A stretch of 44,454 bases of DNA from Dactylosporangium sp. (GTDB taxonomy: Bacteria > Actinomycetota > Actinomycetes > Mycobacteriales > Micromonosporaceae), in NCBI GenBank assembly GCA_013041765.1, contig JABDRL010000359.1, positions 1 to 44,454 of the forward strand, written 5' to 3'. Below the pieces are notes generated by a model that was not told the DNA's origin, ran no database searches, and worked only from the letters and a program-made list of their open reading frames with translations. The position numbers were made by a program, and so were the translations under genes. Every line of letters begins with the position of its first letter. The first letter of the stretch is position 1. This document shows positions 8,451-38,209 of the stretch, one piece after another.

Positions 8451-8921
8451 TCACGCCCGGGTGCTCACGTTCGACGTGATGTGGTGCCACGTATCGGTCG
8501 GCTTGTCGTAGGTCCCGGCGAACCAGCCCAGCGTGCCTGCCTCGTCGAAGTTCTTCTTGCACACACCCCACTTGCCGCCACCGAGGGAGTTGATGCAGAT
8601 GCCCCGCCGCACGATTTCCATGGAGATACCGTTCGGAACGGCCAGGATCCAATCGGCGGCCGCCGAGTACCCGTCCACCTTGGTGTCCTTCACCCAGAAG
8701 TCGTCGCTGCCCTCCACATAGCACGCAATGGCTTGGACATCGCCTGACCCGATGTATGTGGAGCTGGTGCACTTCGTGAACGACGGTGGGGTGCCTGCCA
8801 CGGCGGTGTTCCACTCGTAGACCGGCGTGGTCACCGACGCCGATGCCGGGGCCGCCGTGAACGCCACCAGACCCGTTGCCATGACGAGCGCCACGATCGC
8901 GGAAAGTCCCTTCCTCACCAT
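8451..8921 (-). CDS. Small secreted protein with four cysteines
   Basis: 156 residues. The N-terminus is a classical Sec signal peptide (MVRKG, hydrophobic core, then APASAS with cleavage near residue 29). The mature part of about 127 residues contains four cysteines (KCTSS, IACYV, GICIN, GVCKK), suggesting two disulfides, and several aromatic residues. I do not recognise the family. ATG 8921 has a very good ribosome site (GGAAGGAGAG). It has its own 314-base leader and a downstream hairpin, so it is probably transcribed alone. Its position between an envelope enzyme and a sensor kinase makes an extracellular or wall-associated role likely, but this is inference. Confidence 0.75.
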   Translation of the reverse strand: MVRKGLSAIVALVMATGLVAFTAAPASASVTTPVYEWNTAVAGTPPSFTKCTSSTYIGSGDVQAIACYVEGSDDFWVKDTKVDGYSAAADWILAVPNGISMEIVRRGICINSLGGGKWGVCKKNFDEAGTLGWFAGTYDKPTDTWHHITSNVSTRA

Positions 8922-9235
8922 GATCTCTCCTTCCGGTGAAGCGACAGGTAGATCCAACAGACAGCCGCCCGTGGGGGTCGTCTCTCGGCCGCCATCCAGG
9001 AGACGTGGCATCCGCTGGGTGGCGGATTTCAGCGCGGATCGCCTCCGCGAATGCCACGTCTCCCGGTCCGGCCCTCGCGCGGGCCGTCACCGGCATACTC
9101 CCGTCCGGCGGGGCCGGGAAGAACCGCAGTAGGTCGGTACTTTGACGGGACCCGCTGGACGGCTTGTCGAATGCCTGCACCCGGTCCCTGACGCGGCCCG
9201 AGGCCTCCAGGGCAGCGTCGGGTGCGACACCGGCG
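8922..9235. other. Intergenic leader of the secreted-protein gene
   Basis: 314 bases between the fusion gene and the secreted-protein gene, both on the minus strand. I see no gene I can support. The minus-strand reading frame stays open through much of it without a recognisable start or family. It must hold the promoter of the secreted-protein gene, but I cannot assign -35 and -10 boxes with confidence. Confidence 0.4.
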
Positions 9236-12049
9236 TCACGACGCTTGCTGGCGGGGAGCCGGCGTGGGGACGACCGGTGTTTCGGTATGCGCCGAGGCCG
9301 AGGCCGTGGGCGTCGGCGTGGCCGTTGGCGTCGCCGTGGCCGTGGCCGTGGTGACGGCGGGGAGGTCGAAGGCCCATCCGTCATCCAGGAGCTGCGGGAT
9401 GAGGGTCCGGAGCGCATGAACGGTCTGGGTGCGGTCTCCGCCGCCGTCGTGCAGGAGCATGATCCCGCCCGGTTCGAGCCGCTCCTGTGCTGCCTGCACG
9501 ATGGCGTCGGCTCCTGGCCTGTTCCAGTCCTCTGGATCGACGGTCCAGGCCAGGGGAGTCAGGCCAAGGTCGGCACCGACCGTGGCGGAGGATCCCCAGC
9601 TGCCGTAGGGAGCGCGGAAGTAGTCGATCCTCGCGTCCGGCGCGGCCGCCAGCACCGCGGCGGTCATCGCAGACAGGTCACTGCTGACCTGTGCTGCGGT
9701 CATGGGTGACAGGTCGTCATGGTGCATCGAGTGATTGCACAGGGCGTGCCCCTCCGCGACCAGGCGAAGCACCGCGTCCGGGTGGTCTTTGACCTGGTCG
9801 CCTACCATGCAGAAGGTTGCTGTGATGCCGTACTGAGCGAGCAGGTCAAGGACCTGACCGGTGTACTCCGACGGTCCGTCGTCAAAGGTCAGTGCGACCG
9901 TTTTCCCTCCGGAGCGGGTGCGGTCCACCAGCGTCATCTCCTGGGTCGTGGTGCCCGTGCCGGGCCGTGGGGTGGTAGCTCTCGCAGCTCCGGCGTCACC
10001 GATGCTGGTGCTGCCGACGTGCCCCGGGGCCGGCAGCCGCGCCGGTGGTTTCCCGTCCAGCGCCTGGGCCATGAAGCCTCGCCACAGCCGGGCCGGCAGA
10101 CCATCGCCGGTCATGGGGGAGCCCCCGGCATCTCGGATCGGCCCGGGCCGCTCGCCGCCGATCCAGACCACGGTGGCGAGCTGAGGCGTGTATCCAGCGG
10201 CCAGGGCATCCTGGTTGTCCGCGGTGTTTCCCCATTGCTGGGTTCCGGTCATCAGCGCCGCCGGATGGCCGCCCGGCCCGCCTTCCCGCTCGGCGACGTG
10301 GTGCAGGACGGTGGTGACGTCGGCGGCGACCGCGCGATCGACGACCCGGACGGTGGCGGTTGGCCTGATGCGCCAGCTCTCGCCGCCGATGCCGGTGACC
10401 GACTCGACGAAGTGCCGGTCGGCTCGGATGCCTCCGGCGGCCAGCGTCGCGTATGCGCTGGCGAGATCCGCTGGGGAGACCGGATAGCGCCCGAGGGCGA
10501 TGTCCGCGCGAGTACGTCCGGGGCGCGGCTCGCCCTTGACGTCCACCATGGAGGACACGCCACCGTATGCCGGTGAGATCCCCATGTCGATGGTCCATCG
10601 CCGGACGCGGGCGGCGCCGAGGTGTGTTGCCAGGGCGTAGAACGGTGTGTTCAACGATCGCATCATCGACTCGTCAAGTGTGCAATTCGGACATTGGGCT
10701 CCGCCCCGGTTGTGCAGCGGCGCTCCCAGCCGATCGGGGAAGACCCGGGGTGAGGAGCCGTCCCACCGGGACAGGTACGACACGCCCTCACCCAGGCCGG
10801 CGGCGAGCACCAGCGGTTTGAAGGTGGACGCCGGCGGGTGCGGTGCGCCGGCGTCGTCGTAGAAGCCTTGCCCCCGCCGGCCGCCGTAGTAGGCGCGTAC
10901 CCCGCCGGTTGCAGGATCGACCGATACCAGGGCTCCGCGCAGTCCGGCCGAGGTCTCCACGTGGCCGGTCATGCGGTCAATGGCGTCCTGCTGGGTATCG
11001 TGATCGATGGTTGTCACCACGTTCAGCCCTGCCGTGCGCAGCGTCTGTGGAGAGATTCCCCGGCGGGACAGTTCCCGCTCAACGGCGTCGACGATGAGTC
11101 CGTTTGGCCCGCGCAGGGATTCCGCGGCCGCCGAGGGGGAGAGGACGTCCGGGTAGGCAAGGCGCCTGGCGCTGACATTGTCCAGCCAGGACAGTGATGC
11201 CATCGTGTTGACGACCCACCGCCACCGACGCTGTGCCGCTGGCAGGTCCACGGCGGGGTCGTAGCCCCAGGGATCCTTGATGATCGAGGCGAGGACCGCC
11301 CCCTGGGCGACGGTCAGCCGGTCGGTCGTCGTGCCGAAATAGGCCTTCGCCGCGGCTGCGATACCATACGCGCCCCGACCGAAATAGATGGTATTGAGGT
11401 AGCGTTGTAGAATCTCGTCCTTGCTGCACCGCCGCTCGAGTTTCACCGAGAGCACCATCTCGTTGGCCTTGCGACGGACGGTGCGTGTCTGCGTCAGGTA
11501 CGCGTTCCGGACGTATTGCTGGGTAATGGTGGACGCGCCTTGGCTGCCGCCGAACAGATTGGCCCATGCGGCGCGTGCGATTCCTCGGGTCGACAGACCG
11601 CGATGGTCGTAGTAGCCGCGATCCTCTGCCGCGAGTATCGCATCGCGAACGGATTCTGGCACATCCGATAGCGGCACGTCGGTCCGGTTGGCGGTGCCCA
11701 GCCTGGCCAGTACGGTATGCCCGTCGCGGTAGTACAGGACTGATGCCTGAGGAACCTGGGGGTCATCCGGCAATGGCACCTGGGCGGCGTATATGACAAC
11801 CGCGCCGGTCAGCATCAACATGACGACCGTCATCGACACCATGAACCGTCGAAGAACCCGCCAGATTATCGATCCGCCGATCCGCGGCGAGCCCAGAAGC
11901 GGGACCCTCGCAAGGGGTGTGCATGTCGTGATGCGATGCCATGATCTGCTGCCCGAACGAGCGAGCGATCGCGCTACATCAGACAGATCGCCAGGTAACT
12001 GGTGAAGTGACCTTCGACGATGCGTTGCCTTCAATCTGAATCTACGCAC
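9236..12049 (-). CDS. Class A penicillin-binding protein fused to a polysaccharide deacetylase
   Basis: 937 residues. A cytoplasmic basic N-terminus is followed by one membrane helix (about 69-89). The GT51 glycosyltransferase follows (catalytic Glu142 in AEDRGYYDHRG, GASTITQQ 171-178, RKANE and YLNTIYFGRGAYGI). Next is a transpeptidase with Ser408-Thr-Phe-Lys411 and Ser465-Leu-Asn467. A NodB-type deacetylase follows: TFDDGP 721-726, His773/His777, RAPYG 812-816, VDPEDW and LLHDGGG, so all five motifs are present. A Thr/Pro/Ala tail ends the protein. It should polymerise and cross-link peptidoglycan outside the membrane and deacetylate N-acetyl sugars. The third transpeptidase motif, normally KTG, reads Met600-Thr-Gly, so cross-linking may be impaired. 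GTG 12049 has AGGAG 6 bases upstream. The gene is divergent from an OmpR-type regulator with shared direct repeats between them. Confidence 0.93.
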   Translation of the reverse strand: MRRFRLKATHRRRSLHQLPGDLSDVARSLARSGSRSWHRITTCTPLARVPLLGSPRIGGSIIWRVLRRFMVSMTVVMLMLTGAVVIYAAQVPLPDDPQVPQASVLYYRDGHTVLARLGTANRTDVPLSDVPESVRDAILAAEDRGYYDHRGLSTRGIARAAWANLFGGSQGASTITQQYVRNAYLTQTRTVRRKANEMVLSVKLERRCSKDEILQRYLNTIYFGRGAYGIAAAAKAYFGTTTDRLTVAQGAVLASIIKDPWGYDPAVDLPAAQRRWRWVVNTMASLSWLDNVSARRLAYPDVLSPSAAAESLRGPNGLIVDAVERELSRRGISPQTLRTAGLNVVTTIDHDTQQDAIDRMTGHVETSAGLRGALVSVDPATGGVRAYYGGRRGQGFYDDAGAPHPPASTFKPLVLAAGLGEGVSYLSRWDGSSPRVFPDRLGAPLHNRGGAQCPNCTLDESMMRSLNTPFYALATHLGAARVRRWTIDMGISPAYGGVSSMVDVKGEPRPGRTRADIALGRYPVSPADLASAYATLAAGGIRADRHFVESVTGIGGESWRIRPTATVRVVDRAVAADVTTVLHHVAEREGGPGGHPAALMTGTQQWGNTADNQDALAAGYTPQLATVVWIGGERPGPIRDAGGSPMTGDGLPARLWRGFMAQALDGKPPARLPAPGHVGSTSIGDAGAARATTPRPGTGTTTQEMTLVDRTRSGGKTVALTFDDGPSEYTGQVLDLLAQYGITATFCMVGDQVKDHPDAVLRLVAEGHALCNHSMHHDDLSPMTAAQVSSDLSAMTAAVLAAAPDARIDYFRAPYGSWGSSATVGADLGLTPLAWTVDPEDWNRPGADAIVQAAQERLEPGGIMLLHDGGGDRTQTVHALRTLIPQLLDDGWAFDLPAVTTATATATPTATPTPTASASAHTETPVVPTPAPRQQAS

Positions 12050-12257: not shown

Positions 12258-12965
12258 ATGAACGACGGGGGCCCGACGGTGGCACGGATACTGGTCGCGG
12301 AAGACGACCGGAAGCAGGCCAACCTCATGCGGGTGTACCTGGAACGCGACGGTCACAGCGTGCTGACCGTCGCCGATGGGCGAGCGGCACTGGACCAGTG
12401 CCGGGCACGCCGTCCGGACCTGGTGGTGCTCGATGTCATGATGCCGCTGGTGGACGGGCTGGACGTGTGCCGGATCCTGCGTGCCGAGTCCAACATTTCG
12501 ATCCTGCTTCTCACCGCGCGCTCAACCGAGCAGGACATCCTGCTGGGCCTGGACCTTGGCGCTGACGACTACATCACCAAGCCGTACAGCCCGCGTCAGT
12601 TCACCGCCCGGGTACGGGCGGTGTTGCGGCGGGCGGGCGCCGCGGCGCCTCGCGACGCGGACGTCCTCCGCGTTGGAGATCTCCAGGTCGACCCGAGCCG
12701 GTTCGAGGTGCGGCTGGGCGCTCGTCCGGTGACGCTGACCGCGAAGGAATTCGGCATCCTGGAGGTGCTCGCCCGTGAACCAGGCCGGGCATTCACCCGG
12801 GCTCAGATCATCCAGCAGGCCTTTGGATTCGACCACGACGTCCTCGAACGCACCATCGACGCACATGTCATGAATCTGCGGCGCAAGATCGAGGAGAACC
12901 CGGCCGAGCCCCGGTATGTGCAGACGGTCTACGGCCGCGGGTACCGCGTTCCGGAGGAACCGTGA
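12258..12965 (+). CDS. OmpR/PhoB-family response regulator
   Basis: 235 residues: a receiver with the acidic pair D16-D17, phospho-acceptor D59 (VVLDVMMPL), the conserved Thr of LLLTARS and Lys of DDYITKPYS, then a winged-helix DNA-binding domain ending in YVQTVYGRGYRV. It should bind tandem 11-base repeats as a head-to-tail dimer; two such repeats lie just upstream. ATG 12258 is taken as the start, but GTG 12279 (protein beginning VARILVAEDD, with a G-rich stretch upstream) is just as plausible. The stop overlaps the kinase GTG as GTGA. Likely targets are its own operon and the divergent PBP-deacetylase gene. Confidence 0.88.
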   Translation: MNDGGPTVARILVAEDDRKQANLMRVYLERDGHSVLTVADGRAALDQCRARRPDLVVLDVMMPLVDGLDVCRILRAESNISILLLTARSTEQDILLGLDLGADDYITKPYSPRQFTARVRAVLRRAGAAAPRDADVLRVGDLQVDPSRFEVRLGARPVTLTAKEFGILEVLAREPGRAFTRAQIIQQAFGFDHDVLERTIDAHVMNLRRKIEENPAEPRYVQTVYGRGYRVPEEP

Positions 12966-14607
12966 GGTTCCAGCTACGGGTACTCGGCCTGGTCGGGATG
13001 GTCGCGGTGGTCGCGACGGGAGCGACCTCGTGGATCACGCTGGGAGTGACGTCACGCCTCTGGGGGAAGTCGGAAGAGGCGGCCCGCCGCGAGGTCGAGG
13101 TCATCACGCAGACCCTGGTCGCATACGGTCGACAGCACGGCACCTGGGAAGGCGTCGACGCCGCCGTCACGGACCTGACCCGCCGGACCGGCCAGCGGAT
13201 CCGGCTGGTCACCGAGTACGACGAGGTCGTGGTCGACAGCGACAACCTGGCCGGGCGGGCCGCCCGGCCGCCGCCACATCGCCAACACTCATCGACCCTC
13301 GACCGGTACTTGATCTTCCAGCCGGACCGTTCCCCAGGGAACTGGCCGTCCTTACCGGCGCCGAGATCGACCGGGCCATCCGCGACATCCGCCGTGCCGC
13401 CTGCCTGACCCGCAGCGGAAGCGAACCGGAGACGACCGCGGACACCTACGGAACGCCGTCCCCGGAGGCCGGACCCGACGCGTCCCGGCCGATGGATGTC
13501 CAGCACTGCGGCACCCTGGTAGGGGTCACCGCCCAGGAACGGACCGAGATCCTCGGCGAGGCTCTCGCCTGCGCCAGGATGTCCTCGGGTACCTTCCGCC
13601 CCTGCCTGACCCGGCTGTTCACCGACCGGATCAGCCCGGTGGCACCCGTGCCGCTCCTGCTCTACCTTGGCGCGGTCGGGCGGCAGCCACTGCGCACATT
13701 GGCGTTCCCGCTGCTGGTGACGGCCAGTGTCGTGATGGTTGTGGCTGTCGCCGGCGGTGTCCTCCTCAGCCGGCGGGTACTCCGCCCGGTGGGTACGCTC
13801 ACCACCGCCGCGCGCCGTTTCGGCGACGGCGATCTCGCTACCCGGGTACGAGTCTCCGGACACGACGAACTCGCCGAGCTGGGCTGCTCGTTCAACCGCA
13901 TGGCCGAATCGATCCAGAGCGCAGAGGAGCGGCAGCGGCGCATGGTCTCCGACGTCGCGCACGAGCTGCGGACTCCGCTGGCCAACCTGCGCGGCTACCT
14001 GGAGGCGCTCAAGGACGGGGTGATCGCGCCAGCGCCGGAGGTCTTCACCTCGCTGCATGACGAGGCCGTGCTCCAGCAGCTCATCGTCGAGGATCTGCAG
14101 ACACTGGCGCTGGCGGAAGCGGGAACGCTGACCTACCAGCGAACCCTCGTCGATCTCGCTGAGTTGCTGGAAGGCTGCCGGGCGGCCCACCAGGCGGTCG
14201 CCGCCGCGGGCGAGATCCGGCTGGTTGTCCGGCAGCCCGGCCCGGCCCGCGTCGTTGCCGACCACGGCCGGCTTCGTCAGGTACTCAGCAACCTCATCAC
14301 CAACGCGATCCGGCACACGCAGGCCGACGGCACGGTCACGCTGGCCGCCGAGTCCCACGGGACCACCGTGATCATCAAGGTGAGCGATACCGGTTGCGGG
14401 ATCGCGGAAGCCGATCTGCCATGCGTGTTCGACCGGTTCTGGAGAGCCGACGCGGCCCGGCGGCGGTCCACCGGCGGCAGCGGCCTTGGCCTGGCGATCG
14501 CTCGACAGATCGTGCTGGACCACGGTGGCACCATCACGGTGGCCAGCCAGGTTGGCCAGGGCACGACCTTCACGGTCACGCTCCCGGGCTACGACCCAGC
14601 GCGCTGA
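12962..14607 (+). pseudogene. HAMP sensor histidine kinase, frameshifted
   Basis: Partner kinase of the preceding regulator (GTGA overlap). The first frame encodes a membrane helix (about residues 6-28) and the start of an extracytoplasmic sensor up to DSDNLAGRAARP. The rest of the protein continues in another frame from about 13265 (TSPTLIDPRPVLDLP). It contains a second membrane helix, HAMP, an H-box (VAHELRTP, His codon 13960-13962), an N-box (NLITNAIRHT), G1 (DTGCGIAEADL) and G2 (GSGLGLAIARQ). Restoring the frame needs one base (or minus two) in the C/G-rich stretch near 13250-13270. Everything else is intact. It is therefore either a very recent pseudogene or a one-base sequence error. 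As written, only the N-terminal 148 residues would be made from the proper start. Confidence 0.8.
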
Positions 14608-17323: not shown

Positions 17324-20300
17324 TCAGCCCGTCCGCACCTGGTCCCGGCCGGTCTGCTTGGCCCGGTAGAGGCACTGGTCGGCTCGGGCGAGCAGGGTGT
17401 CGAGGCCCCCGTCTGCCGGCGTCAACGCGGCGACGCCGATGCTGACGGTCACCGGCAACAGACCCGACCGGGTCGGCACCGGCTGCTCGGCCATGGCGCC
17501 GCGCAGCCGCTCGGCCAGCCCGGTCCCGGCGTCGAGGTCGGTGCCGGGCAGCAGGATCGCGAACTCCTCGCCACCGTACCGACCGAGGATGTCGGTGGTT
17601 CGGATCCCGTCGGCAAGACGGGTGGCGACGGAGCGGATGACATCATCGCCGGTCAGATGCCCGTAGGCGTCGTTGACGCGCTTGAAGTGGTCGATGTCGA
17701 TCATCGCGGCGGTGACGGGCCCCGAGTGCCGGCGGGCCTCGACCAGGGTCTGCTCGGCCGTCTCGAAGAACTGCCTGCGGTTGGCCAGGCCGGTGAGTCC
17801 GTCGGTGCCTGCCAGGACCTGGACCCGGGCGAACAGGGCGGCGTTGTTGTAGGCCGCCATGCCTTGAGCGACGAGCGCCGCGGCGACGTTGACCTCGGCG
17901 TCCTGGTACGCGTCGCTGGCCGTTGAGGTGAGCACCAGGACCCCGAGCGTGGCGTCGCGCGTGGCCAGCGGCAGCGCGAGCCAGGACTTGACGGATCCGA
18001 GGTGCTCGCCGATTGCCGCGGGGAGTTCGCTGCCGCGCGCCGTGGTCGCCGTGGTCAGGCTTGTCAGCCGGCGTATCGCCGGCTGGGCGGCCAGCAGGCG
18101 TTCACGGCGCGCCAGCTGGCCGTGGGGCGCCAGCCGCATCGCGATGCCGGCGGGGGCCGGTGTGAGCAGGCAGGCATCCTGTCCGGGCGCGATCCGGACC
18201 GCCTGCTCGAGCAGGCAGGCCAGGACCTCGTCTGGATCGAGCAGAGCCGACATCCTGGTCAACGCGTCGTGCAGCATCTCGGCGAGATCCCGCTGCTGCC
18301 TGGCCTTCTCCACCGATACTTCGAGTTGGGCGGCACGGGCCGTCTCCAGCGACATCGCGACATGCTCGGTGATCGCGGTGAGAATGTCCGCATCTTCGGC
18401 GGTGAAGATACCTTTGGCCACCTGACTGTCGAGATACACCACGCCGAGAACCCGACTGTCGAGCTGGAGCGGGGCGACCAGGATACTGCGCAGGCCGTGG
18501 ACGACGGCGCTCTGCGCGCCGAGCGCCGCTCCCTCCTCGGTGCCGGTGACCACGATCGGCTCCCCGGTGGCGGCCACCCGTTCCACCAGCGATCTGGTGT
18601 ATCCGGTGAACTCCTCGACGTCGTTGCCGGCCGCGTCCCGGCCGACGTGCGGCACCAGCTGGTGGGCCGGGTCTGCCTGGCCACCGGCCGGATCGGCGAC
18701 GGTCAGGAACAGCAGCGCCCGCTCGGCGGCCAGCACCCGGATCGTTTCGTCCAGCGCGATGCGGGCGAGTGCTTCCGGGTCGACCACCCGCATGGCCGCC
18801 TTGCTGACCGCGGCGAGCGCCCGCAACCGGTGGTGGTCCGGCCTGGTGCCCGCGGTCGAGTCGTGCGCCCAGGGGGCGCGCTGGACAACGCCCACCGCCG
18901 GGAGGTCGAACTCGCCGCAGACCCAGCGCACCCGGTGCGGCCAGCCCTCCGCGAGCGCGACATGCTGGGCGTAGGCCGCCTGCCTGGTCGCCTCGGCCTC
19001 GTGCCCGAGCACCCGGAGCGCCCTGGCCCTGGTCCTGGCCGCTTCGTAGGCGAGCATCGGGGCATCCGGTTTCAGCGCCGGCATCGTGGCGAGCATCTTC
19101 AGGCAGCGCTGCGGCCGACCGTCGACCAGCAGCAACTGGGCGCGGGCCAGCCGTGCCGCGCACCGGACGAACTGGGTGTCCGCGACGCGGCGCAGCTGGC
19201 GAAGTGCCTGCCCGGCCGCCGCACGATGCTTCCGGCGCTGCCGGTCGTCCGCGGGCAACCGGCACTGGGCGATCCGGCCGAGGGCATAGTGCACCCAGAA
19301 CATCCGGTGCTGGCGGATCATGAGCCATGGCCGCAGGCCCAGCCCGAGGACCTCCTGGGCCACCCGATCGAACGACTCGGTGAAGTCCTCCTGCTCGACG
19401 CAGGCGTACAGCTCGGCGAGCAGGAAGTTGACGTGTCGGCCGATGCTGCCATGCTCGGTGAGCATGGGGCGCACCCGGCGGAGCGTCGCGCCCGCCGCCG
19501 CTGCCCGTCCGGCGGCGGCGTCGATCACCGCACCGACCGTGATCATGCTGCTGATCTCGCCGTCGGAGCCGCGCCGCTGCGTACCGCGCTCGTACCAGCC
19601 CGCCGCCTCCCTGGTGCGTCCGGCCACGACGGCGTCCCAGGCCAGGCTGGTGTAGCCGTCGTCCTGCAGACCCGAGTCGAGCCACCGGCCGTGCTCGGCC
19701 ATGACCTGGGCCCAGCTGTCGCCGTCGTCCCGGCCCACCATGTAGGTGGCCGCACCCCGGCACCACCGGATCGTCGCCATCGGCTCCGGATCGCCCAGTC
19801 GCCCCGTCTCGGCCTCTGCCCGGCGGAAGCTGCGCTTCGCGGCGCCCCACAACCGGAACGTCGCCGCACAGAACCCGAGCCCGGCGTGCCCGTAGGCGTA
19901 CGTCGGGCCAGGGCCCAGACGGTGCAGCGGGTACATGGTCCGTGGGTAGTGATTGACCAACACCGACGGTTGCATGGTTTCTATGCCGACGTACCCGGCC
20001 AGGATGTGCAACGCGACGGTCAGTTCGTGCCGTCTGGCCTGCTCGCCACGGGCGGTTCCGGCGCCGATGCCGGTCATCGTGCCGATCAGCCCGGCGGCGA
20101 AGTGCCCGAGTGTCGAGGCCAGCGCCAGTAGCTGGTGTCGTGGCACCGATGCGCGGAGTTCGGCAAGGCCCTGAGACGCGGCATCGAGCGCTGCGGGGGC
20201 GTTCCAGGTGGTGCGGTGAACCCCGCCGAGGTGGTAGAGGATCTCCGCCCGTTCGATCGGAGCGGTCTCCGCCCGCAGCGCCCGCTCCAGCTGCTCCTGC

Positions 20301-22711
20301 GCCTCGGCGTACCGGCCGTCGCGGAACAACGCCTCGCCGAACAGGCGCAGGAACCTGGCGTCCAGCGCCGTTCCGGTGCCCGCCGCGTGTCGCAGGAACA
20401 GCACCGCCGCGGCCGGGGCGTGGTCGGCCAGGGCGAGCCGTCCCGCGGCGAGGCAGGCCGCGAAGACCTGGGGCTGGGCACCTGCCTGCTCGGCGAGCAG
20501 CCAATGGTGCGCCCGCTCGTACGCGGCACGGGGCCGCGGGTCGGCCTGCTCGGCGAGCGCGTCCGCGATGCGCCGGTGCAGGACGCGGCGCTGCCGCTGG
20601 TCCAGGTCGTGGAGCAGGGCCTCCCGGATCTGGTCGTGCAGGAAGACGACGTCCCCGTCGCCGCCGCGCTCGACCAGCCGATGCTCGGCCGCCTCGGCGA
20701 CGGCGGCCAGCACCAGGTCGAGGTCGGCGTCACAGACCCGGGCCAGGACCGTCGGGTGGAACCTCGTCCCCACCCCGGCCGCGGCGGCCAGCAGGCGCCG
20801 GCTGTCGGCGCCGAGCGCGTCGACCCGGGCGATGACGAGGCCCAGTACGTCCTGCGGTAGTTCGAGTGCACCGAGGCCCTCCGCGTCGAGCACCCACGTA
20901 CCCCAGCACGGACGCAGCAGGCCAGCATCGACGATGACGCGCAGGTACTCCAGCGCGACGAACGGGTTGCCAGCTGACCGCACGGCCAGCAACCGCGGCA
21001 GCGCCGAACGGGCACTGACGCCGGGCAGCTGCGCGGCGACCAGGTCAGCGACGCCCCGCTCGTCGAGCGGGCCGAGCGTGATGTCCAGGTCGAGCGCCGC
21101 GCCGAGCGAGGCGCAGAACGCGTCCGTCGCGGCGAGACCGGCCTCGTCGTCGCGGGCGGTGCACACCACGAGCAGCGGCGCGTCGGGCCCCGCCGCCATC
21201 AGCCGGGCGACGATGCGGCTGGTGACGGCGTCGATCCACTGCACATCGTCGAGGTGCAGCAGCAGCCCTCCGGCAGCGCCGGCCAATGCGCGCAGGAAGT
21301 CGACGACGGCCACGGTGAAGTGCTCCGGTCGCTCCCCGCCGCCAAGGTGGGTATCGCCAAGGTGGGTACCGCCGAGCAGATCGTCCAGCGCCGGGGCGAG
21401 CGCCCCGAGCAGCGGCGCCGCCGTGCCCGCCGCCGAGCGCAGCAGGCCCTGCCAGTGCACCCGCTCCGGCTCGGGGAGGTCGGCCAGCGTGCGCACTGCC
21501 TCCTCGACCGCCGACCGCAGCGGCGCCAGCGGCACGGCCTCGTCTTCTGGGCTTCTCCCCGACAGCACGAGCGCGCCCTGGTCCTGGACCAGAGCGGCGA
21601 GTTCCGCGGCGAGCCGGCTCTTGCCGGACCCGCCCGGTCCCCGGATCACGCACACGCCCCCGCGCCGCTGGCGCGCCTGCTCCCAGCGCGACACCAGCCG
21701 GGCACGTTCCCGGTCCCGGCCGCACAGCGGGTGCTCCTGCCGCCGGTGCGGGGCACGCCCCGGCCGCCCCGGGGCAAAGACCGCGGCCGGATCGGCAACC
21801 AGCCGGCGCAGATCCGATGCCAGGTCCTCGCCGCTCTGGTACCGGTCGTCGGGGTCCTTGGCCAGCAACATCGCCACCATGGCGCCGAGGGCCGGCGGTA
21901 CCGCCGTCGCCAACGACCGCAGGTCCGGTGCCGCCGCCGCGGCGTGCATCCGCAGCAGCTCGCCTGGATCATCGGCTGGGAACGGCGGTCTGCCGGCAAG
22001 GCACTCGAACAGCACGACGCCGAGCGAGTACAGGTCCGACCGGCCGTCCACCGGCCGTTTCAGCATGCCGGACTGCTCCGGCGGGGCGTAGACGAGCGTG
22101 CCGGCGACCGTCGTGCCCGGGTGGCCGCCCTCCCAGGCCGCCAGGCCAAAATCAATGAGGCTGGCGTGACCATTGCCGGTCACCATGATGTTCTGTGGCT
22201 TCACATCGCGGTGCACCAGCCCTCTGCGGTGCACCTCAACCAGCGCCGCCGTGACATCCAACGCCAGGTGCGTCGCGGTTGGCGGCGGCAGCACGCCGTC
22301 GACCAGCAGATCGGCCAATGACCGGCCGGTCACGAGGTCCATCACCAGGTACGGGCGGCCATGGACCTGACCGACATCATGGATGCGCGGCAATCCCGGG
22401 TGGTCGATGCTGGCCATCATCGCCGCCTCGCGGCGGAACCCCACCAGCGCCTGCTCGGTGGAGCGGCCGTCGCCGGCACTGTGCTGGAACACCTTCACCG
22501 CGTAGTCGGCGGCACCCCGCCGCACCCGGTACACGACCGTGGTGGCGCCGCGGCCGAGTTCACCCAGGACATGCAGACCAGGCAGATCGAGGTCCGGCCC
22601 CGGTCCACGCGACAGGTCTCCGCGCCGGCCGGAACCAACCCAGGCACCAGGCTCCGTCCGGGCGGTCACGCACACCTCATCGACGAGACCACCGCCGACT
22701 TGACCCGTCAC
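17324..22711 (-). CDS. Ser/Thr kinase - AAA ATPase - GAF - GAF - diguanylate cyclase multidomain protein
   Basis: 1795 residues. Kinase domain about 45-305: GRGATT 53-58, Lys73, HRDVKPQN with Asp169, DFG 187-189. AAA_16-type ATPase about 327-700: Walker A GPGGSGKS 358-365, Walker B LLLHLDDVQWID. A long helical repeat region of TPR/MalT type spans about 700-1250. Two GAF domains follow (about 1270-1450 and 1460-1640). A GGDEF domain closes the protein with active-site GGEEF at 1713-1717 and an intact RxxD inhibitory site (RTTD) nine residues before it. It should both phosphorylate proteins and make c-di-GMP in response to a ligand or redox signal sensed by GAF. No membrane helix is seen. The start is uncertain: GTG 22711, or the internal GTG near 22669, which has GAGG upstream. 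An imperfect 15-bp tandem repeat lies in it at 21341-21370. Confidence 0.9.
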   Translation of the reverse strand: MTGQVGGGLVDEVCVTARTEPGAWVGSGRRGDLSRGPGPDLDLPGLHVLGELGRGATTVVYRVRRGAADYAVKVFQHSAGDGRSTEQALVGFRREAAMMASIDHPGLPRIHDVGQVHGRPYLVMDLVTGRSLADLLVDGVLPPPTATHLALDVTAALVEVHRRGLVHRDVKPQNIMVTGNGHASLIDFGLAAWEGGHPGTTVAGTLVYAPPEQSGMLKRPVDGRSDLYSLGVVLFECLAGRPPFPADDPGELLRMHAAAAAPDLRSLATAVPPALGAMVAMLLAKDPDDRYQSGEDLASDLRRLVADPAAVFAPGRPGRAPHRRQEHPLCGRDRERARLVSRWEQARQRRGGVCVIRGPGGSGKSRLAAELAALVQDQGALVLSGRSPEDEAVPLAPLRSAVEEAVRTLADLPEPERVHWQGLLRSAAGTAAPLLGALAPALDDLLGGTHLGDTHLGGGERPEHFTVAVVDFLRALAGAAGGLLLHLDDVQWIDAVTSRIVARLMAAGPDAPLLVVCTARDDEAGLAATDAFCASLGAALDLDITLGPLDERGVADLVAAQLPGVSARSALPRLLAVRSAGNPFVALEYLRVIVDAGLLRPCWGTWVLDAEGLGALELPQDVLGLVIARVDALGADSRRLLAAAAGVGTRFHPTVLARVCDADLDLVLAAVAEAAEHRLVERGGDGDVVFLHDQIREALLHDLDQRQRRVLHRRIADALAEQADPRPRAAYERAHHWLLAEQAGAQPQVFAACLAAGRLALADHAPAAAVLFLRHAAGTGTALDARFLRLFGEALFRDGRYAEAQEQLERALRAETAPIERAEILYHLGGVHRTTWNAPAALDAASQGLAELRASVPRHQLLALASTLGHFAAGLIGTMTGIGAGTARGEQARRHELTVALHILAGYVGIETMQPSVLVNHYPRTMYPLHRLGPGPTYAYGHAGLGFCAATFRLWGAAKRSFRRAEAETGRLGDPEPMATIRWCRGAATYMVGRDDGDSWAQVMAEHGRWLDSGLQDDGYTSLAWDAVVAGRTREAAGWYERGTQRRGSDGEISSMITVGAVIDAAAGRAAAAGATLRRVRPMLTEHGSIGRHVNFLLAELYACVEQEDFTESFDRVAQEVLGLGLRPWLMIRQHRMFWVHYALGRIAQCRLPADDRQRRKHRAAAGQALRQLRRVADTQFVRCAARLARAQLLLVDGRPQRCLKMLATMPALKPDAPMLAYEAARTRARALRVLGHEAEATRQAAYAQHVALAEGWPHRVRWVCGEFDLPAVGVVQRAPWAHDSTAGTRPDHHRLRALAAVSKAAMRVVDPEALARIALDETIRVLAAERALLFLTVADPAGGQADPAHQLVPHVGRDAAGNDVEEFTGYTRSLVERVAATGEPIVVTGTEEGAALGAQSAVVHGLRSILVAPLQLDSRVLGVVYLDSQVAKGIFTAEDADILTAITEHVAMSLETARAAQLEVSVEKARQQRDLAEMLHDALTRMSALLDPDEVLACLLEQAVRIAPGQDACLLTPAPAGIAMRLAPHGQLARRERLLAAQPAIRRLTSLTTATTARGSELPAAIGEHLGSVKSWLALPLATRDATLGVLVLTSTASDAYQDAEVNVAAALVAQGMAAYNNAALFARVQVLAGTDGLTGLANRRQFFETAEQTLVEARRHSGPVTAAMIDIDHFKRVNDAYGHLTGDDVIRSVATRLADGIRTTDILGRYGGEEFAILLPGTDLDAGTGLAERLRGAMAEQPVPTRSGLLPVTVSIGVAALTPADGGLDTLLARADQCLYRAKQTGRDQVRTG

Positions 22712-29483: not shown

Positions 29484-29906
29484 CTAGCGTCCCGATCGGG
29501 GCGAGGGCAGCGGCTGCCAGGACACGACCGTGGGCCGGGCACCGGTGACGGCGAACTCGCGGGCGGCCTGGCGGGCCACGCTCACCGGGACCGCCGAGCG
29601 GTCGGGCATGGTCCACACGCCGCCCAGACGAAACGCCACCGACGACGCGGCGGGCGCTGTCGCAACGCTGCTGAGGGCCTCCCCGGCGACATTGTCGTAC
29701 CAGCAGACGACGCTGAGATCCGGGTGGGCCAGGCCGATGTCGAGCACCCGGTGCTCGTCGATGCTGACGATTTCCACCAGGGGCGGGGCCTGCTGATGCC
29801 GGGGGTCCGCGGCGAGCCGGTCGAGGACACGGTCGAGTTCTCCGGTGCTGGTGACGGTGACGGGGTCTTCGCGAGGATCGACGTAGACCATGACCGGCTG
29901 ACGCAT
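29484..29906 (-). CDS. Imm1-family immunity protein
   Basis: 140 residues. The Imm1 hallmarks are an early strand VMVYVDPRED, the ELDRVLDRLA helix, the LSVVCWYDNVAG strand and the C-terminal motif RPTVVSWQP. Imm1 proteins neutralise deaminase or nuclease toxins of contact-dependent systems, but in actinobacteria many are orphans, as here: no toxin gene is within the window. ATG 29906 follows GAAGGGA. A short copy of the C-terminal motif lies just upstream on the same strand near 29950-30000, which hints at a lost tandem paralogue. Confidence 0.75.
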   Translation of the reverse strand: MRQPVMVYVDPREDPVTVTSTGELDRVLDRLAADPRHQQAPPLVEIVSIDEHRVLDIGLAHPDLSVVCWYDNVAGEALSSVATAPAASSVAFRLGGVWTMPDRSAVPVSVARQAAREFAVTGARPTVVSWQPLPSPRSGR

Positions 29907-30091
29907 GCGTCGGTTCCCTTCAGATTGTGACCGCCAGCACCCCGACCCTGCCGCCTCGCGATGCTGGTCCGGCTGCGGCTGCCACGATACGCACGTTGGC
30001 CGATATCCGCCGGGGTGTTCCGGCCCGGATGGTGCGTGGCCGGCCCCGGCCGGCGACCCGGCACCGCGGATCTCCGCCCGGGTCGGGTGGC

Positions 30092-30871
30092 TCATGGGGC
30101 GAATCCGCCGTTGCTGAGCAGGAGTTGCCCGTTGATCCAGCCGCCCTCGGGGGAGCACAGGAACGCGACCAGGTTCGCGCAGTCCCGCGGCTGGCCGAGA
30201 CGGGCCAGCGGGGTGGCGCGGATGACGCCGGCCTGCATCTCCCGGCTCATCCACCCGGTGTCGGTCGGCCCGGGATTGATGACGTTGGCGGTGACCCCGA
30301 GATGGGCCAGCTCCCTGGCGGCCGCGAGGGTGATCCGGTCGAGGGCGCCCTTGCTCGCCCCGTACGGCAGGTTGCCAACGGTGTGGTCGCTGGTGAGACT
30401 CAGGATCCGGCCGGTGCCGTGGGGTCCGTCGAACCGGCGGGCGTACTCCCGGATGAGCAGCCAGGTCGCCCGGGCGTTCACCGCGAAGTGCCGGTCGAAG
30501 CTGTCGACGGTGGTGGTGAGGATGTCCGAGTCGACAGACTCGCAGTGGCACATCACCAGCGCGGTGACCCGGCCCAGACCGTGTTCGACGGTGTCGAAGA
30601 TCCGGGTGGGGGTGTCGGGGTCGCTCAGGTCCGCCTCGACGGCCAGGGCGCGTGACCCGAGTGCCTCGGCCCGCCGGGCGAGAGACCCGGCGGTGGCCGG
30701 ATCGCCGCCCCAGGGCATGCGCTCGTCGTAGGCGTTCCACGCGGTGAACGCCACCTCCCAGCCGTTCCCGGCCAGGGCGACGACGACGGACGCCGCGATC
30801 CCGCTGGTCCGGCCGGCGCCGGTCACCAGCGCCAGCGGGCGGGCGGCTCGGCCGGTGTCCGGTGCGGCCAT
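30092..30871 (-). CDS. Short-chain dehydrogenase/reductase
   Basis: 259 residues, Rossmann fold. The cofactor loop is TGAGRTSGIA. The catalytic Ser is in LTSD and the YxxxK pair is in YGASK. NPGPTDTGWM and the end NGQLLLSNGG are typical of classical SDRs. The substrate is unknown. The Asn of the usual NNAG motif is replaced (MCHCES), a departure seen in some SDR subfamilies with less certain activity. ATG 30871 shares one base with the MFS stop (TGATG), so the two are coupled. Confidence 0.82.
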   Translation of the reverse strand: MAAPDTGRAARPLALVTGAGRTSGIAASVVVALAGNGWEVAFTAWNAYDERMPWGGDPATAGSLARRAEALGSRALAVEADLSDPDTPTRIFDTVEHGLGRVTALVMCHCESVDSDILTTTVDSFDRHFAVNARATWLLIREYARRFDGPHGTGRILSLTSDHTVGNLPYGASKGALDRITLAAARELAHLGVTANVINPGPTDTGWMSREMQAGVIRATPLARLGQPRDCANLVAFLCSPEGGWINGQLLLSNGGFAP

Positions 30872-32130
30872 CAGCTGCCCCCCTGATCTCCGGTGGTCTG
30901 CGGCGTCGGCTCAGAACTGTACCGAGGGGCGCGCGTGCGCAACCCCCAGCCCATCATCGGGAGCGCGATCGTCGCCGCCACGGCTCCGGAGACCAGCAGC
31001 GGGACCGTTCCGTCCGCGCCCCAGGCCAGCCCGGCCCACAGCCCGGCCAGCAGGACCCCGAGCCCCGTCAGGCACTGAAACACCCCCTGGCCGCTGCCCT
31101 GGAGGTGTTCGGGCAGCAGCCGGGAGATCCACGCCTTGCCGACGCCATCGGTGCCCGCGGCGAACCCGCCGTAGCCGACCAGAAGCACCAGAGCGACCAC
31201 GGGCGACCGGGTCAGCCCGAGCCCGAGGTACGCGACCGCGAAGCAGCCCAGGCCGATGCCGAACACCGTGGCCGGGGACAGCCGATCCGCCAGGGCGCCA
31301 GCGGGGAGGCTCAGTGTGGCGTAGGCCAGGTTGAACAGCACGTACGCCCCGATGACCCCGGGGACGGAGAACCCGATCTCGTAGAGCCGGAGCAGGAGCA
31401 GCGCATCGGGGAAGTTGACGAGCGCGAACCCGGCGAGGACCGCGACCACCGTCCAGTACCGGGATGGCAGCCGGCCGGGGGCGAGGAGCGAACCCCACCC
31501 GGAGGCTGGCCTGGGGGCGGGGCGGCGGACCGGCTCGCGCAGGGCGAGGACCAGCAGGGTGCTGGCCACCGCCGGGACGAGGGCGATCAGCAGCAGCGGC
31601 CGGATTCGCTCCTGGAGCAGGTGGTACAGGGCAAGCCCGGCGAGCGGGCCGATGACGGCCCCGGTCGTGTCCATGGCCCGGTGGAATCCGAAGGCCCGCC
31701 CCCGCGCCCGAGGGGGAACATCGGCGACGATCAGGGCGTCCCGGGGCGCCCCCCGGAGTCCCTTGCCGAGCCGGTCGATGCCCCGGCCGGCGAGGACGAC
31801 CGGCCACGCCCCCGCGACGGCGACCATGGCCTTCCCGAGCGCCGCCAGCCCGTACCCGAGTCCGATCAGCGGCTTGCGGGGAAACCGGTCGGCGAGCCGG
31901 CCACTGATCAGCTTGGTGACCGCCGAGGCCGCTTCGGCGATGCCCTCGACGATGCCGACGGCGGCGGCTGGCGCGCCGAGGACGGCGGTCAGGAAGATCG
32001 GCATCACCGGGTAGAGCAGTTCCGAGGCCGCGTCCTGGGTCAGCGAGACTGCGGAAACGATTCTGAGATTCCTGGTGAGCCATGGCGCGCGGGCGTGGTC
32101 GGGGCACTCGGGGGCGGGTGACCGGGTCAT
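30871..32130 (-). CDS. Major facilitator superfamily transporter
   Basis: 419 residues, about twelve hydrophobic helices. Between helices 2 and 3 lies the MFS signature GRLADRFPRKPLIGLGYG, and a related GALADRLSP appears in the second half. The RLGKGLRGAPRDALI segment is typical of a group of drug/metabolite exporters. ATG 32130 gives a short cytoplasmic N-terminus; the frame is open to 32193. It is coupled to the SDR downstream, so the pair may modify and export one compound. It is divergent from the ABC transporter across about 200 bases. Confidence 0.85.
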   Translation of the reverse strand: MTRSPAPECPDHARAPWLTRNLRIVSAVSLTQDAASELLYPVMPIFLTAVLGAPAAAVGIVEGIAEAASAVTKLISGRLADRFPRKPLIGLGYGLAALGKAMVAVAGAWPVVLAGRGIDRLGKGLRGAPRDALIVADVPPRARGRAFGFHRAMDTTGAVIGPLAGLALYHLLQERIRPLLLIALVPAVASTLLVLALREPVRRPAPRPASGWGSLLAPGRLPSRYWTVVAVLAGFALVNFPDALLLLRLYEIGFSVPGVIGAYVLFNLAYATLSLPAGALADRLSPATVFGIGLGCFAVAYLGLGLTRSPVVALVLLVGYGGFAAGTDGVGKAWISRLLPEHLQGSGQGVFQCLTGLGVLLAGLWAGLAWGADGTVPLLVSGAVAATIALPMMGWGLRTRAPRYSSEPTPQTTGDQGGS

Positions 32131-32332
32131 GACCAAGCATTCTGGTGGCCCCCGGCGGATCCGGTACCGGCGGTACGTCCATCTCTTGACCATCGGTGGA
32201 GTCCAATGTCACTCCTTCCCGGGTTTCGGTAGCCATATCCAGGCCTGTCAACGGAGAATGAGCGGGTACACAACGGACAGGCGGGGGAGGTTCCGAGCGG
32301 CGGCTACCCGGCCACGATGCGAGGAGACGACG

Positions 32333-33895
32333 GTGAACAGGACAGACGGCGCACGACCGAGGGGCCGGAGCCGACGTTGGCGGCTCGCCGCGCTCATCTC
32401 CGTGGTTGCCCTTGCGGCGACCGGATGCTCGGGGGGCGAATCGGTGGACGTGGACGGAGACTCCGGCGGCAGCGGTGGCACACTCGTTGTGGCGATCTCC
32501 AGCGAGCCCGACAGCCTGGACGTCCACGTCTCGACCGCATCGCCGACGTTCCTGGTCCTCGAAAACGTGTACGACACGCTGGTGGAGCCGGCCGCGGATC
32601 TCAGCTTCCAGCCGGCCCTGGCCACCGATTGGCAGATCAGCGAGGACCTGCTCACCTGGACCTTCCACCTGCGCAAGGACGTCACCTGGCACAACGGGCG
32701 GGCCTTCGGCGCGGACGACGTGGTCGCCAGCTTCCAACGGATCATGGATTCGGACGTCGCCGCCAACGCGTGGCGGTTCGAGTCGGTGACGGAGGTCCGC
32801 AAGGTCGACGATCTGACCGTCGAGTTCGCCCTGAACCGGCCGACGCCGAACCTGCTGGCGAACGTCGGCGGGTTCAAGGGCATGGCGATCGTGCCGCCGG
32901 AACTCATCGAGGGAGACGGCCTGGCCACCGGTGCCGTCGGAACGGGCCCCTTCACCTTCGTCAGCTACACCCCGGGCGACAAGATCGTGCTGGCGGCCAA
33001 TCCCGAGTACTGGGGGGAGGGCCCCTTCGTGGACCGGGTCGAGTTCCGCTTCATCGCGGAACCGACCACCGCGCTCACCAACCTGCGCACCGGCGACGTG
33101 CACCTGACCAACAACGTGCCGCCGCAGCAGATCGACGCGCTGAGCGACGATTCCGACGTGGAACTCGGCCGGCTGGCCAGCAACGACTACTGGTACTTCA
33201 CCTGCAACTTCGACCGGGAGCCGTTCAACAACACCGATGTGCGCCGAGCGCTGTCGTTCGCGGTGGACCGGGAGCAGATCGCGCAGGCCGCCTACTTCGA
33301 CGCCGCCACCCCGGTGCAGTCGGCGATGGGACCGGGCAGCTTCTGGGCCACCGACTACGCGCCGTTCTCCCATGATCCCCAGCAGTCGCGGGACCTGCTG
33401 GCCAAGGCGGGCGTGTCCGGGCTGACGGTGGACCTGATGCTCACCAACGAGTTCCCGCACACCATCCAGGCCGCCGAGGTCATCGCCAGCCAGTGGAAGG
33501 ACGTCGGGGTCGGGGTGAACATCCGCACGCTCGACTTCGCCAGCTGGCTCGACGAGCAGGGCAAGGGCAACTACGACTGCTACGTGCTGGGCTGGCTGAA
33601 CAACCTCGACGGCGAGTACGCCTACCACGCCCAGCACCACTCCGGCGGCGCCTACAACTTCCAGGGGTACGCCAACGCCGAGGTGGACCGGCTCCTCGAC
33701 GAGGCCCGGGTGCAGACCGACGACACGACCCGGCGCGACCGGTATGCGGCCGCGGCCCGCCTGCTCATCGACGACGTCAGCTACGCCTACCTCTACACCC
33801 CGGACACCGTGCTCGCCTGGCTGCCCACCGTGAAGGGAGTCGAGGTGCACCCGGACGGGAAGACCCGGTTGCGCGGCGTCCGGATCGGCGGCTGA
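32333..33895 (+). CDS. Peptide-type ABC transporter substrate-binding lipoprotein
   Basis: 520 residues of the DppA/OppA-type SBP_bac_5 family. The lipoprotein signal has basic residues, a hydrophobic core and the lipobox LAATGC (Cys near 35). The family landmarks are present: ENVYDTLVE, PALATDWQISEDLLTWTFHLRKDVTWHNG and VGTGPFTFVSYTPGD. It should bind peptides or similar ligands outside the membrane and deliver them to the permeases encoded next. GTG 32333 follows GAGGAG. It is the first gene of a five-gene transporter operon. Confidence 0.93.
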   Translation: MNRTDGARPRGRSRRWRLAALISVVALAATGCSGGESVDVDGDSGGSGGTLVVAISSEPDSLDVHVSTASPTFLVLENVYDTLVEPAADLSFQPALATDWQISEDLLTWTFHLRKDVTWHNGRAFGADDVVASFQRIMDSDVAANAWRFESVTEVRKVDDLTVEFALNRPTPNLLANVGGFKGMAIVPPELIEGDGLATGAVGTGPFTFVSYTPGDKIVLAANPEYWGEGPFVDRVEFRFIAEPTTALTNLRTGDVHLTNNVPPQQIDALSDDSDVELGRLASNDYWYFTCNFDREPFNNTDVRRALSFAVDREQIAQAAYFDAATPVQSAMGPGSFWATDYAPFSHDPQQSRDLLAKAGVSGLTVDLMLTNEFPHTIQAAEVIASQWKDVGVGVNIRTLDFASWLDEQGKGNYDCYVLGWLNNLDGEYAYHAQHHSGGAYNFQGYANAEVDRLLDEARVQTDDTTRRDRYAAAARLLIDDVSYAYLYTPDTVLAWLPTVKGVEVHPDGKTRLRGVRIGG

Positions 33896-33946
33896 GCCCG
33901 CCCGCCCGGACAACGGATCCCACAGCAGAAGGAGGTCTGCTCGGCC

Positions 33947-34891
33947 ATGGGCCGATACCTGCTGCGCCGGCTGCTGCATACGGTGCTGGCGATGCTCGGC
34001 GTCAGCATCGGGGTGTTCCTCATCATGCACCTGGTGCCCGGCGACCCGATCCGGCTCGCCCTGGGCACCCGGTTCGACCCCGAGGTCTACCAGGCACTGC
34101 GTTCCCGGGCCGGCCTCGATCGGCCGCTGCTGGCGCAGTACGGTACCTGGCTGTCGCATGCCGTCACCGGGGACTTCGGGGTGAGTTTCCGCAGCGGGCA
34201 GCCCGTCGGTGAGCTGCTGTGGCAGCGGCTGGGGCCCACGGCGACGCTGGCGGGCGCGGCCCTGCTGGTGGCGCTGTCCATCGCCCTGCCGGTGGGCATC
34301 CTGTCCGCGGTGTGGTCGGGCTCGGTCATCGACCGGATCGCCACGGCGTTGAGTCAACTCTGGGTGTCGGTGCCGGATTTCTGGAGCGGCATCATGTACA
34401 TCCTGCTGTTCGCCCTGGTCCTCGGCTGGTTGCCGGCCTCGGGCTACGTGTCGCCCCTCGACGACCCGGTCCAGGCGCTGCGGCACCTGGTGCTGCCGGC
34501 CCTCACCGTGGGCCTGATCTCCGGCTCGATCCTGACCCGGTTCGTGCGCTCCGCGGTGCTGGAGGCCCTCAACCAGGACTACACCCGGACCGCCCGGGCC
34601 AAGGGCCTGTCGCGATGGCAGACGGTCCGCCGCCACGTCCTGCCCAACGCCTGGATCCCGATCGTCACCGTTGCCGGTCTTCAGCTGGGATTTCTGCTCG
34701 GCGGGGTGGTGGTGGTCGAGGTGATCTTCGAGTGGCCGGGGCTGGGGCGGCTGGCCTACGACGCGGTGATCCGTCGGGACTACAGCCTGTTGCAGGGCGC
34801 GGTCCTGGTCATCGCGACGGTGTTCCTCACGATCAATCTTTTCGTGGATATCCTGTGTGGATACCTGGACCCGAGGGTCCGGCGCCCATGA
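33947..34891 (+). CDS. Peptide-type ABC transporter permease 1 (DppB-like)
   Basis: 314 residues, six membrane helices. N-terminal RYLLRRLLHTVLAMLGVSIGVFLIMHLVPGDP is the classic DppB start. The EAA loop (ALNQDYTRTARAKGLS...RRHVLPNA) contacts the ATPases. ATG 33947 follows GGAGGT. The gene overlaps the next permease by ATGA. Confidence 0.93.
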   Translation: MGRYLLRRLLHTVLAMLGVSIGVFLIMHLVPGDPIRLALGTRFDPEVYQALRSRAGLDRPLLAQYGTWLSHAVTGDFGVSFRSGQPVGELLWQRLGPTATLAGAALLVALSIALPVGILSAVWSGSVIDRIATALSQLWVSVPDFWSGIMYILLFALVLGWLPASGYVSPLDDPVQALRHLVLPALTVGLISGSILTRFVRSAVLEALNQDYTRTARAKGLSRWQTVRRHVLPNAWIPIVTVAGLQLGFLLGGVVVVEVIFEWPGLGRLAYDAVIRRDYSLLQGAVLVIATVFLTINLFVDILCGYLDPRVRRP

Positions 34892-35814
34892 CCGACGACC
34901 CCGAGGACCGGGCCACGCCCGGTGCCGGTGCCCCGATCGCCGAACACCGCACCCGCACCCGGGAGACCATCGGGATCCTGCTGACCAACCGGCTGTCGGC
35001 CTTCGGGCTGGTCGTGATGGGCCTGCTGATCTTCACTGCGGTGTTCGGGTCCATGGTGGCCCCCTACGACCCGACCAGCGTCGACATCCCCGCCCGGCTC
35101 TCGGGGCCGTCGCTGGACCACCCGTTCGGCACGGACAACCTCGGCCGGGACGTGTTCAGCCGGGTCCTGGCCGGCGCGCGGGTCTCCTTCCAGGTCGGCA
35201 TCGTGGCGGTCGGCATCTCCCTCACCATGGGGGTGGTCACCGGACTCGTCGCCGGGTTCTACTCCGGAGCGGCCGACGCCGTGCTGATGCGCGCGATGGA
35301 CATGCTGTTCGCCTTCCCCGCGATCCTGCTCGCCATCGCCGTCCTGGCGGTCCTGGGGCCGGGCATCACCAATGCCATGATCGCCATCGGCATCGTCTAC
35401 ATCCCCATCTTCGCCCGGATCACCCGGGCCAGCACCCTGGTGGTCAAGGAGGAGCTGTACGTCCGGGCCGCCCGCTCCGTGGGCGCCTCGGACCTGCGGA
35501 TCCTGCGACGGCACATCCTGCCCAACATCCTCGCGCCCATCATCGTGCAGACCTCGTTGAGCCTGGCCTTCGCCATCCTGGCCGAGGCCGCGCTGTCCTT
35601 CCTCGGGCTGGGCGTGCAGCGGCCGACCCCGGCGTGGGGCAGGATGCTCGCCGAGGGGCGTGACTTCGTCAACCAGGCCCCGTGGATGGGCATATTCCCG
35701 GGGATCGCGGTCTTCGTCACCGTGCTGGCGTTCAACTTCGTCGGCGACGGGCTGCGCGACGCGCTCGACCCGAAGCAGAAGTCCGTCATCGAGTCCCGGG
35801 GGAGGGCGGTCTGA
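34888..35814 (+). CDS. Peptide-type ABC transporter permease 2 (DppC-like)
   Basis: 308 residues. The N-terminal hydrophilic segment is followed by APYDPTSVD and HPFGTDNLGRDVFSRVLAG, a DppC signature, and five to six membrane helices. The EAA loop (ELYVRAARSVGAS...RRHILPN) is intact. ATG 34888 overlaps the stop of permease 1, so the heteromeric channel subunits are made together. Confidence 0.93.
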   Translation: MTDDPEDRATPGAGAPIAEHRTRTRETIGILLTNRLSAFGLVVMGLLIFTAVFGSMVAPYDPTSVDIPARLSGPSLDHPFGTDNLGRDVFSRVLAGARVSFQVGIVAVGISLTMGVVTGLVAGFYSGAADAVLMRAMDMLFAFPAILLAIAVLAVLGPGITNAMIAIGIVYIPIFARITRASTLVVKEELYVRAARSVGASDLRILRRHILPNILAPIIVQTSLSLAFAILAEAALSFLGLGVQRPTPAWGRMLAEGRDFVNQAPWMGIFPGIAVFVTVLAFNFVGDGLRDALDPKQKSVIESRGRAV

Positions 35815-35816
35815 GG

Positions 35817-37803: not shown

Positions 37804-37807
37804 GCGG

Positions 37808-38209
37808 GTGGAACACCGGGTGTCGTACAAGGTCTACTACGAGGACACGGATTGTCTGGGCATCGTCTACTACGCGAACTATCTGAAGTTCCTGGAGCGT
37901 GGCCGCAGCGAGTTCCTCGCCGCGCACGGCACGACCGCGGCCGACTGGAACCGTGAGGGATACCTGCTCGTCGTGCACTCGATGCACATCACCTACCGCC
38001 GGGCGGCCTCGCTGGGCGAGATGCTCGAGGTGGTGTCCTCGTTCACCCTGAAATCGCGCTTCCGGGGCACCTTCCACCAGCGCATCGAGCGTGCCGGCGA
38101 GCGCATCGTCGAGGCCGGCGTCGACGTCGTCTGCCTCGACGTCGACCAGAAGCTCATCTCGTTCCCCGCGGCGCTCCAGGAGCTGGGTCAGCCCCGATCG
38201 ATCAGGTGA
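37808..38209 (+). CDS. YbgC/4HBT-family acyl-CoA thioesterase
   Basis: 133 residues, single hot-dog fold. The catalytic motif is [27 protein letters not shown], with the Asp in YEDTD as nucleophile or base. It hydrolyses short-chain or aromatic acyl-CoA. GTG 37808 follows the transporter operon by four bases, so it is probably cotranscribed. It converges with the topoisomerase A gene and their 3' ends overlap by 22 bases. A link between peptide uptake and acyl-CoA hydrolysis is not obvious. Confidence 0.88.

Follow-up and report, generated by a model that had tools for sequence, protein, structure and literature searches.

The window, a 44,454-nucleotide stretch of DNA from Dactylosporangium sp. 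(contig JABDRL010000359.1), encodes on its minus strand a 937-aa chain (9236–12049) in which a class A penicillin-binding protein (PBP) and a CE4/NodB polysaccharide deacetylase domain are joined. The fusion, here called PBP-NodB, is a genuine and old arrangement, conserved across no fewer than 22 species within a single actinomycete family. Judged by its sequence, the chain is best read as a lineage-specific class A PBP of the Micromonosporaceae, with a CE4/NodB N-deacetylase fused C-terminal of the transpeptidase domain. Each of these domains is well known; a class A PBP that incorporates a CE4 domain is new as far as the open-access papers searched show. An earlier note on this DNA had allowed that the architecture might already be well described; we found no description of a PBP fused to a polysaccharide deacetylase or NodB domain in the open-access papers searched, although CAZy or InterPro may list the architecture automatically.

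Architecture of the PBP-NodB chain

The gene is an uninterrupted ORF with GTG as its putative start, and homologous single chains are found in other genomes (see below). Read from the N-terminus, the chain consists of one membrane helix, a GT51 glycosyltransferase domain, a transpeptidase domain and a CE4/NodB domain, all on the minus strand. A hydropathy scan shows residues 69–87 (11789–11845), which have an Arg-rich N-terminal flank, as the sole hydrophobic helix, corresponding to the single N-terminal membrane helix of class A PBPs; by analogy with the topology of those proteins, the N-terminus would lie inside and all of the enzyme domains outside. The GT51 domain (residues 113–283, 11201–11713; Pfam Transgly, 6.1e-60) carries AAEDRGYYDH and GASTITQQ intact, matching the catalytic Glu motifs of class A PBPs (EDxxFYxH and GASTITQQ). 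It is followed by the transpeptidase domain (residues 372–625, 10175–10936; Pfam Transpeptidase, 4.2e-19), whose nearest solved relative by sequence is 5crf/5cxw, labelled penicillin-binding protein 1A. A flexible linker (residues 681–712, 9914–10009) leads to the CE4/NodB domain, which was delimited by Pfam and structure matches (residues 713–895, 9365–9913; Polysacc_deac_1, 1.4e-31, over residues 713–831), and the chain ends in a low-complexity Thr/Ala/Pro tail (residues 899–937, 9239–9355). A structure prediction of the full-length chain, made from an alignment of six sequences only, reached a pLDDT of 39.4. ORF, Pfam matches, hydropathy and motifs thus agree with the earlier note, which had proposed a membrane-anchored GT51, a transpeptidase and a full NodB domain with all five motifs in 937 residues.

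PBP-NodB shares the N-terminal membrane helix, GT51 and transpeptidase with the actinobacterial class A PBPs of the PonA1 type (5crf/5cxw), and its transpeptidase aligns end-to-end with 5crf. It differs from them in the added C-terminal CE4 domain, in the replacement of the KTG lysine by methionine in the window strain, and in lacking a PASTA domain (none in a Pfam scan of the 937-aa chain), which has been reported in some actinobacterial class A PBPs (PMC6273383).

Distribution and conservation of the fusion

The same three-domain single chain is present in a congeneric MAG contig (L039, whose sequence is identical to that of L005 from G001), in Paractinoplanes ferrugineus, and in Actinoplanes liguriensis, cyaneus and regularis (L040–L043). 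A draw of 51 Actinoplanes genomes yielded 19 in which PBP-NodB is one ORF (18 of 50 without the genome used as the centre), and the domain order was confirmed at all 16 newly fetched loci. This gives a total of 22 chains, from 20 Actinoplanes genomes, the window and its congener, and hence from two genus-level groups. Mis-assembly, which the earlier note had named as a possible objection at 9900–10050, is ruled out by these independent assemblies carrying the same single chain, seven of them with the Actinoplanes gene on contigs of 9.1–12.0 Mb (near-complete chromosomes).

Among 60 relatives, of which 36 share the family and 24 share the order but belong to different families, a full match was found in the congener only. 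In a draw of 80 genomes across the phylum (three order-level relatives repeated and the window's own genome included, leaving 76 others), a match running through both transpeptidase and NodB occurred in the own genome only; this draw counted single matches spanning the two domains, so that a fusion whose linker differs strongly would be split over two rows and might have escaped notice. None of the plasmid records covers 80% of the PBP-NodB query. The taxonomic mapping proposed in the earlier note therefore places all 22 chains in the Micromonosporaceae, to which the architecture is confined within the genomes sampled.

Catalytic and metal residues of the NodB domain are intact in 22 of 22 fused chains, and the GT51 motifs are present in every member. 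GT51, transpeptidase and NodB are all under purifying selection, with dN/dS of 0.04–0.55 in ten pairs and mostly below 0.35.

Probable decay of the transpeptidase domain

In the window strain the first two transpeptidase motifs are intact, namely STFK (10817–10828), with the nucleophile Ser408 and Lys411, and SLN (10649–10657), corresponding to the SxxK and SxN of class A PBPs. The third, K(T/S)G, is replaced by MTG (10244–10252), and its lysine, which is retained in 20 of the 21 other NodB-fused homologues, is lost to an ATG codon (10250–10252). A single AAG to ATG change suffices for this and could have arisen by recent mutation or reflect a base error. In this strain, however, the DAW conserved after KTG has also become DAL, which points to genuine decay. 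The transpeptidase of the window strain has thus, to judge by its motifs, probably lost its function, and with both the KTG lysine and the conserved tryptophan gone, cross-linking by this chain is doubtful. The name polymerase-transpeptidase-deacetylase, given in the earlier note, may accordingly be two-thirds true here: the GT51 and CE4 motifs are intact, while the transpeptidase is noncanonical (MTG, DAL).

The window strain is one of several cases. In an Actinoplanes homologue (L116 of genome G073) all three transpeptidase motifs are gone (SAFT, SLR and EAG) while the deacetylase is complete, and the nucleophilic serine is lost in four of seven unfused members of the same PBP lineage (L008, L009, L010 and L033). 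Loss of the transpeptidase, as read from these motifs, has therefore occurred several times within the lineage. A general relaxation of the domain across the family is unsupported, given the low dN/dS in most of the pairs tested.

The deacetylase domain and its substrate

The domain has the complete set of five CE4 motifs: TFDDGP (9872–9889), with the catalytic base and the metal-binding Asp; HSMHH (9719–9733), an HSxxH motif with the metal-binding His pair; RAPYG (9602–9616); DPEDW (9524–9538); and LLHD (9446–9457), with the catalytic acid His. The Asp-His-His metal triad, the base Asp and the acid His expected of a CE4 enzyme are thus in place, and the NodB part is predicted to fold as a CE4 barrel (pLDDT 95.7; Z up to 28.0). 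The solved structures closest to this model are CE4 deacetylases, and the top matches include peptidoglycan deacetylases (Bc1960, Z 28.0; SpPgdA, 25.6; PdaC, 25.0) as well as chitin and xylan esterases (7fbw, Z 27.9; ArCE4A, 25.8). PgdA, PdaC and Bc1960 resemble the fused domain in fold, in the five motifs and in being extracytoplasmic, but they are separate proteins that are not joined to a synthase, as deacetylases such as PgdA are in most bacteria (Listeria: PMC6686043), and the fused CE4 domain falls under the curated PgdA cut-offs (NCBIfam models NF045820-22, 84–94 bits against cut-offs of 400–800). The same is true of the PdaA model (TIGR02884, 102.8 against 298) and of the NodB chitooligosaccharide deacetylase model, which gave the best NCBIfam score (TIGR04243, 182.5 bits against 240). 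With scores below all of these cut-offs and with mixed structural neighbours, sequence alone gives no substrate for the CE4 domain; it is from the tether to a peptidoglycan synthase that we infer peptidoglycan. The sequences closest to the fused domain, about 46–53% identical to it, belong to CE4 proteins of actinobacteria that stand alone as separate ORFs without GT51 or transpeptidase (Actinoplanes, Streptomyces, Thermobifida and Saccharothrix; L044–L067), and it was probably from such proteins that the domain was recruited.

These comparisons also give some room to a substrate outside the wall, either an extracellular polysaccharide such as chitin or xylan or else free oligosaccharides; the PBP would then be a mere membrane anchor, with no functional coupling between the two parts. 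The nearest standalone relatives have no assigned substrate, the best-scoring NCBIfam model is that of a chitooligosaccharide deacetylase, and an actinobacterial chitin deacetylase and an acetylxylan esterase are close structural matches; that CE4 enzymes acting on chitin, chitooligosaccharide and xylan match about equally well has to be counted against peptidoglycan. A mere anchor, however, needs no intact, selected GT51 and (mostly) transpeptidase, and an exogenous substrate would hardly explain why 22 species tether the domain beside a glycan polymerase, so that we consider this alternative unlikely.

PdaA acts on muramic acid in the formation of muramic delta-lactam, and Actinoplanes is a sporangium-forming genus. 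The fused domain might likewise deacylate muramic acid, be it MurNAc or N-glycolyl-muramic acid, and do so in a wall of a specialised kind, such as that of a spore or sporangium, as opposed to GlcNAc in the vegetative wall; the PdaA and PdaC structures match the NodB model at Z 24–25, and both the formation of sporangia and the N-glycolylated muramic acid (MurNGlyc) reported for the Micromonosporales (PMC6194230) would suit such a role. The low score against the PdaA model speaks against it, as does the fact that no spore-gene neighbourhood was recognised at the PBP-NodB loci, and CE4 motifs alone do not separate enzymes acting on GlcNAc from those acting on MurNAc. We regard action on muramic acid as quite unlikely and GlcNAc in new peptidoglycan as the more likely substrate.

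Other fusions and history of the PBP lineage

Sister PBPs of the same GT51-transpeptidase lineage (L007, L099–L101 and L121–L129) carry a class-A-beta-lactamase-like domain (Beta-lactamase2, PF13354; motifs SVVK, SDN and KNG) at the C-terminal place that NodB occupies in PBP-NodB. They are found in the Micromonosporaceae, mostly in Actinoplanes, where both kinds of fusion coexist in three genomes (G062, G063 and G064), and all 13 have kept their transpeptidase motifs. The lineage has thus gained extra enzymes more than once. That different additions share one position might suggest that the fusion is neutral or regulatory, with the CE4 domain binding glycan strands and steering the synthase without catalysis, and a CE4 pseudoenzyme, BA3943, is indeed among the structural matches; yet, unlike pseudoenzymes, the fused domains have an intact catalytic and metal site in every chain, which leaves a non-catalytic role very improbable.

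On a tree of the GT51-transpeptidase part, one change with full bootstrap support sets the NodB fusions apart from the beta-lactamase-like fusions, and by this tree the NodB fusion probably arose once. Two unfused members (L009 and L120) are nested among the NodB fusions, which suggests that the fusion was lost there and hence that it is non-essential. The tree of the NodB domain itself places the fused domains in two groups at an open fork, compatible with one or two fusion events. In another genome, G083 (L119, L147), the PBP of the lineage is unfused, and a different contig encodes a standalone NodB protein that matches at 56%, as against 50–53% for the best other standalone CE4 proteins, possibly a split form.

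Gene neighbourhood and other wall enzymes

A divergent two-component pair (12258–14607, plus strand) begins 208 bp from the PBP start and comprises an OmpR-type response regulator (12258–12965) and a histidine kinase (12916–14607). It is a possible regulator of PBP-NodB; a conserved link between the two is unsupported, as a matching pair is absent at L039–L043. Directly downstream of PBP-NodB and on the same strand (8451–9011) is a gene for a small protein with a secretion-signal-like start and no Pfam match. Further along the window are a 1795-aa chain that combines a Ser/Thr kinase domain, an AAA_16 ATPase, GAF domains and a GGDEF diguanylate cyclase (17324–22711, minus strand), and a 418-aa ORF with a C-terminal Imm1 immunity domain (29484–30740, minus strand), near which lie long ORFs without Pfam matches (30911–37830).

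At seven Actinoplanes loci (L130, L131, L133, L135–L137 and L149), which include two close relatives, tandem Big_10-YkuD L,D-transpeptidases are encoded within a few kb of PBP-NodB. Between them lie a PRC-barrel-like small protein and, at most of these loci, a lone CheY-like receiver. Five YkuD and three GT51 proteins, along with five CE4 domains, are encoded in the genome of the window strain, so that cross-linking is independent of the PBP-NodB chain.

A probable glycan polymerase with a tethered deacetylase

We favour, as the probable reading, that the protein polymerises glycan and that the peptidoglycan N-deacetylase tethered to it works on newly made strands. The conservation of the fusion and the purifying selection on its three domains fit a deacetylase tethered beside a polymerase at the outer face of the membrane. 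From what is known of the families, GT51 would polymerise lipid II at this face. The CE4 domain, attached beyond the transpeptidase through a linker of some 40–55 residues, would likewise strip N-acetyl groups, most likely from GlcNAc, before or during the joining of the new glycan to the wall; we reason that the two domains would act upon one and the same new strand. Cross-linking may be carried out by the protein's own transpeptidase in most NodB-fused homologues, whereas in the window strain, where the KTG lysine is absent, the task more likely falls to other PBPs or to the L,D-transpeptidases of that genome. The cell would probably benefit by becoming resistant to lysozyme-type muramidases, or by keeping its autolysins in check.

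NodB persists where the transpeptidase is dead (L116) or impaired (the window strain). A more far-reaching proposal, which we put forward tentatively, is that PBP-NodB deacetylates the peptidoglycan it synthesises while polymerising it; that in the window strain and in G073 it could be a dedicated polymerase-deacetylase, supplying N-deacetylated glycan to other cross-linkers such as L,D-transpeptidases; and that the C-terminal enzymes acquired by the PBP lineage differ from branch to branch.

Whether wall deacetylation takes place on new strands or on the finished wall is usually unclear. With a synthase to which a deacetylase is covalently attached, a single protein would suffice to test this question, since both activities are fixed in ratio and place. 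The natural set of fused, unfused, transpeptidase-dead and beta-lactamase-like-fused members likewise allows one to ask why a class A PBP needs its transpeptidase. For the Micromonosporaceae that carry it, the fusion may mean that the wall is chemically modified while it is being made.
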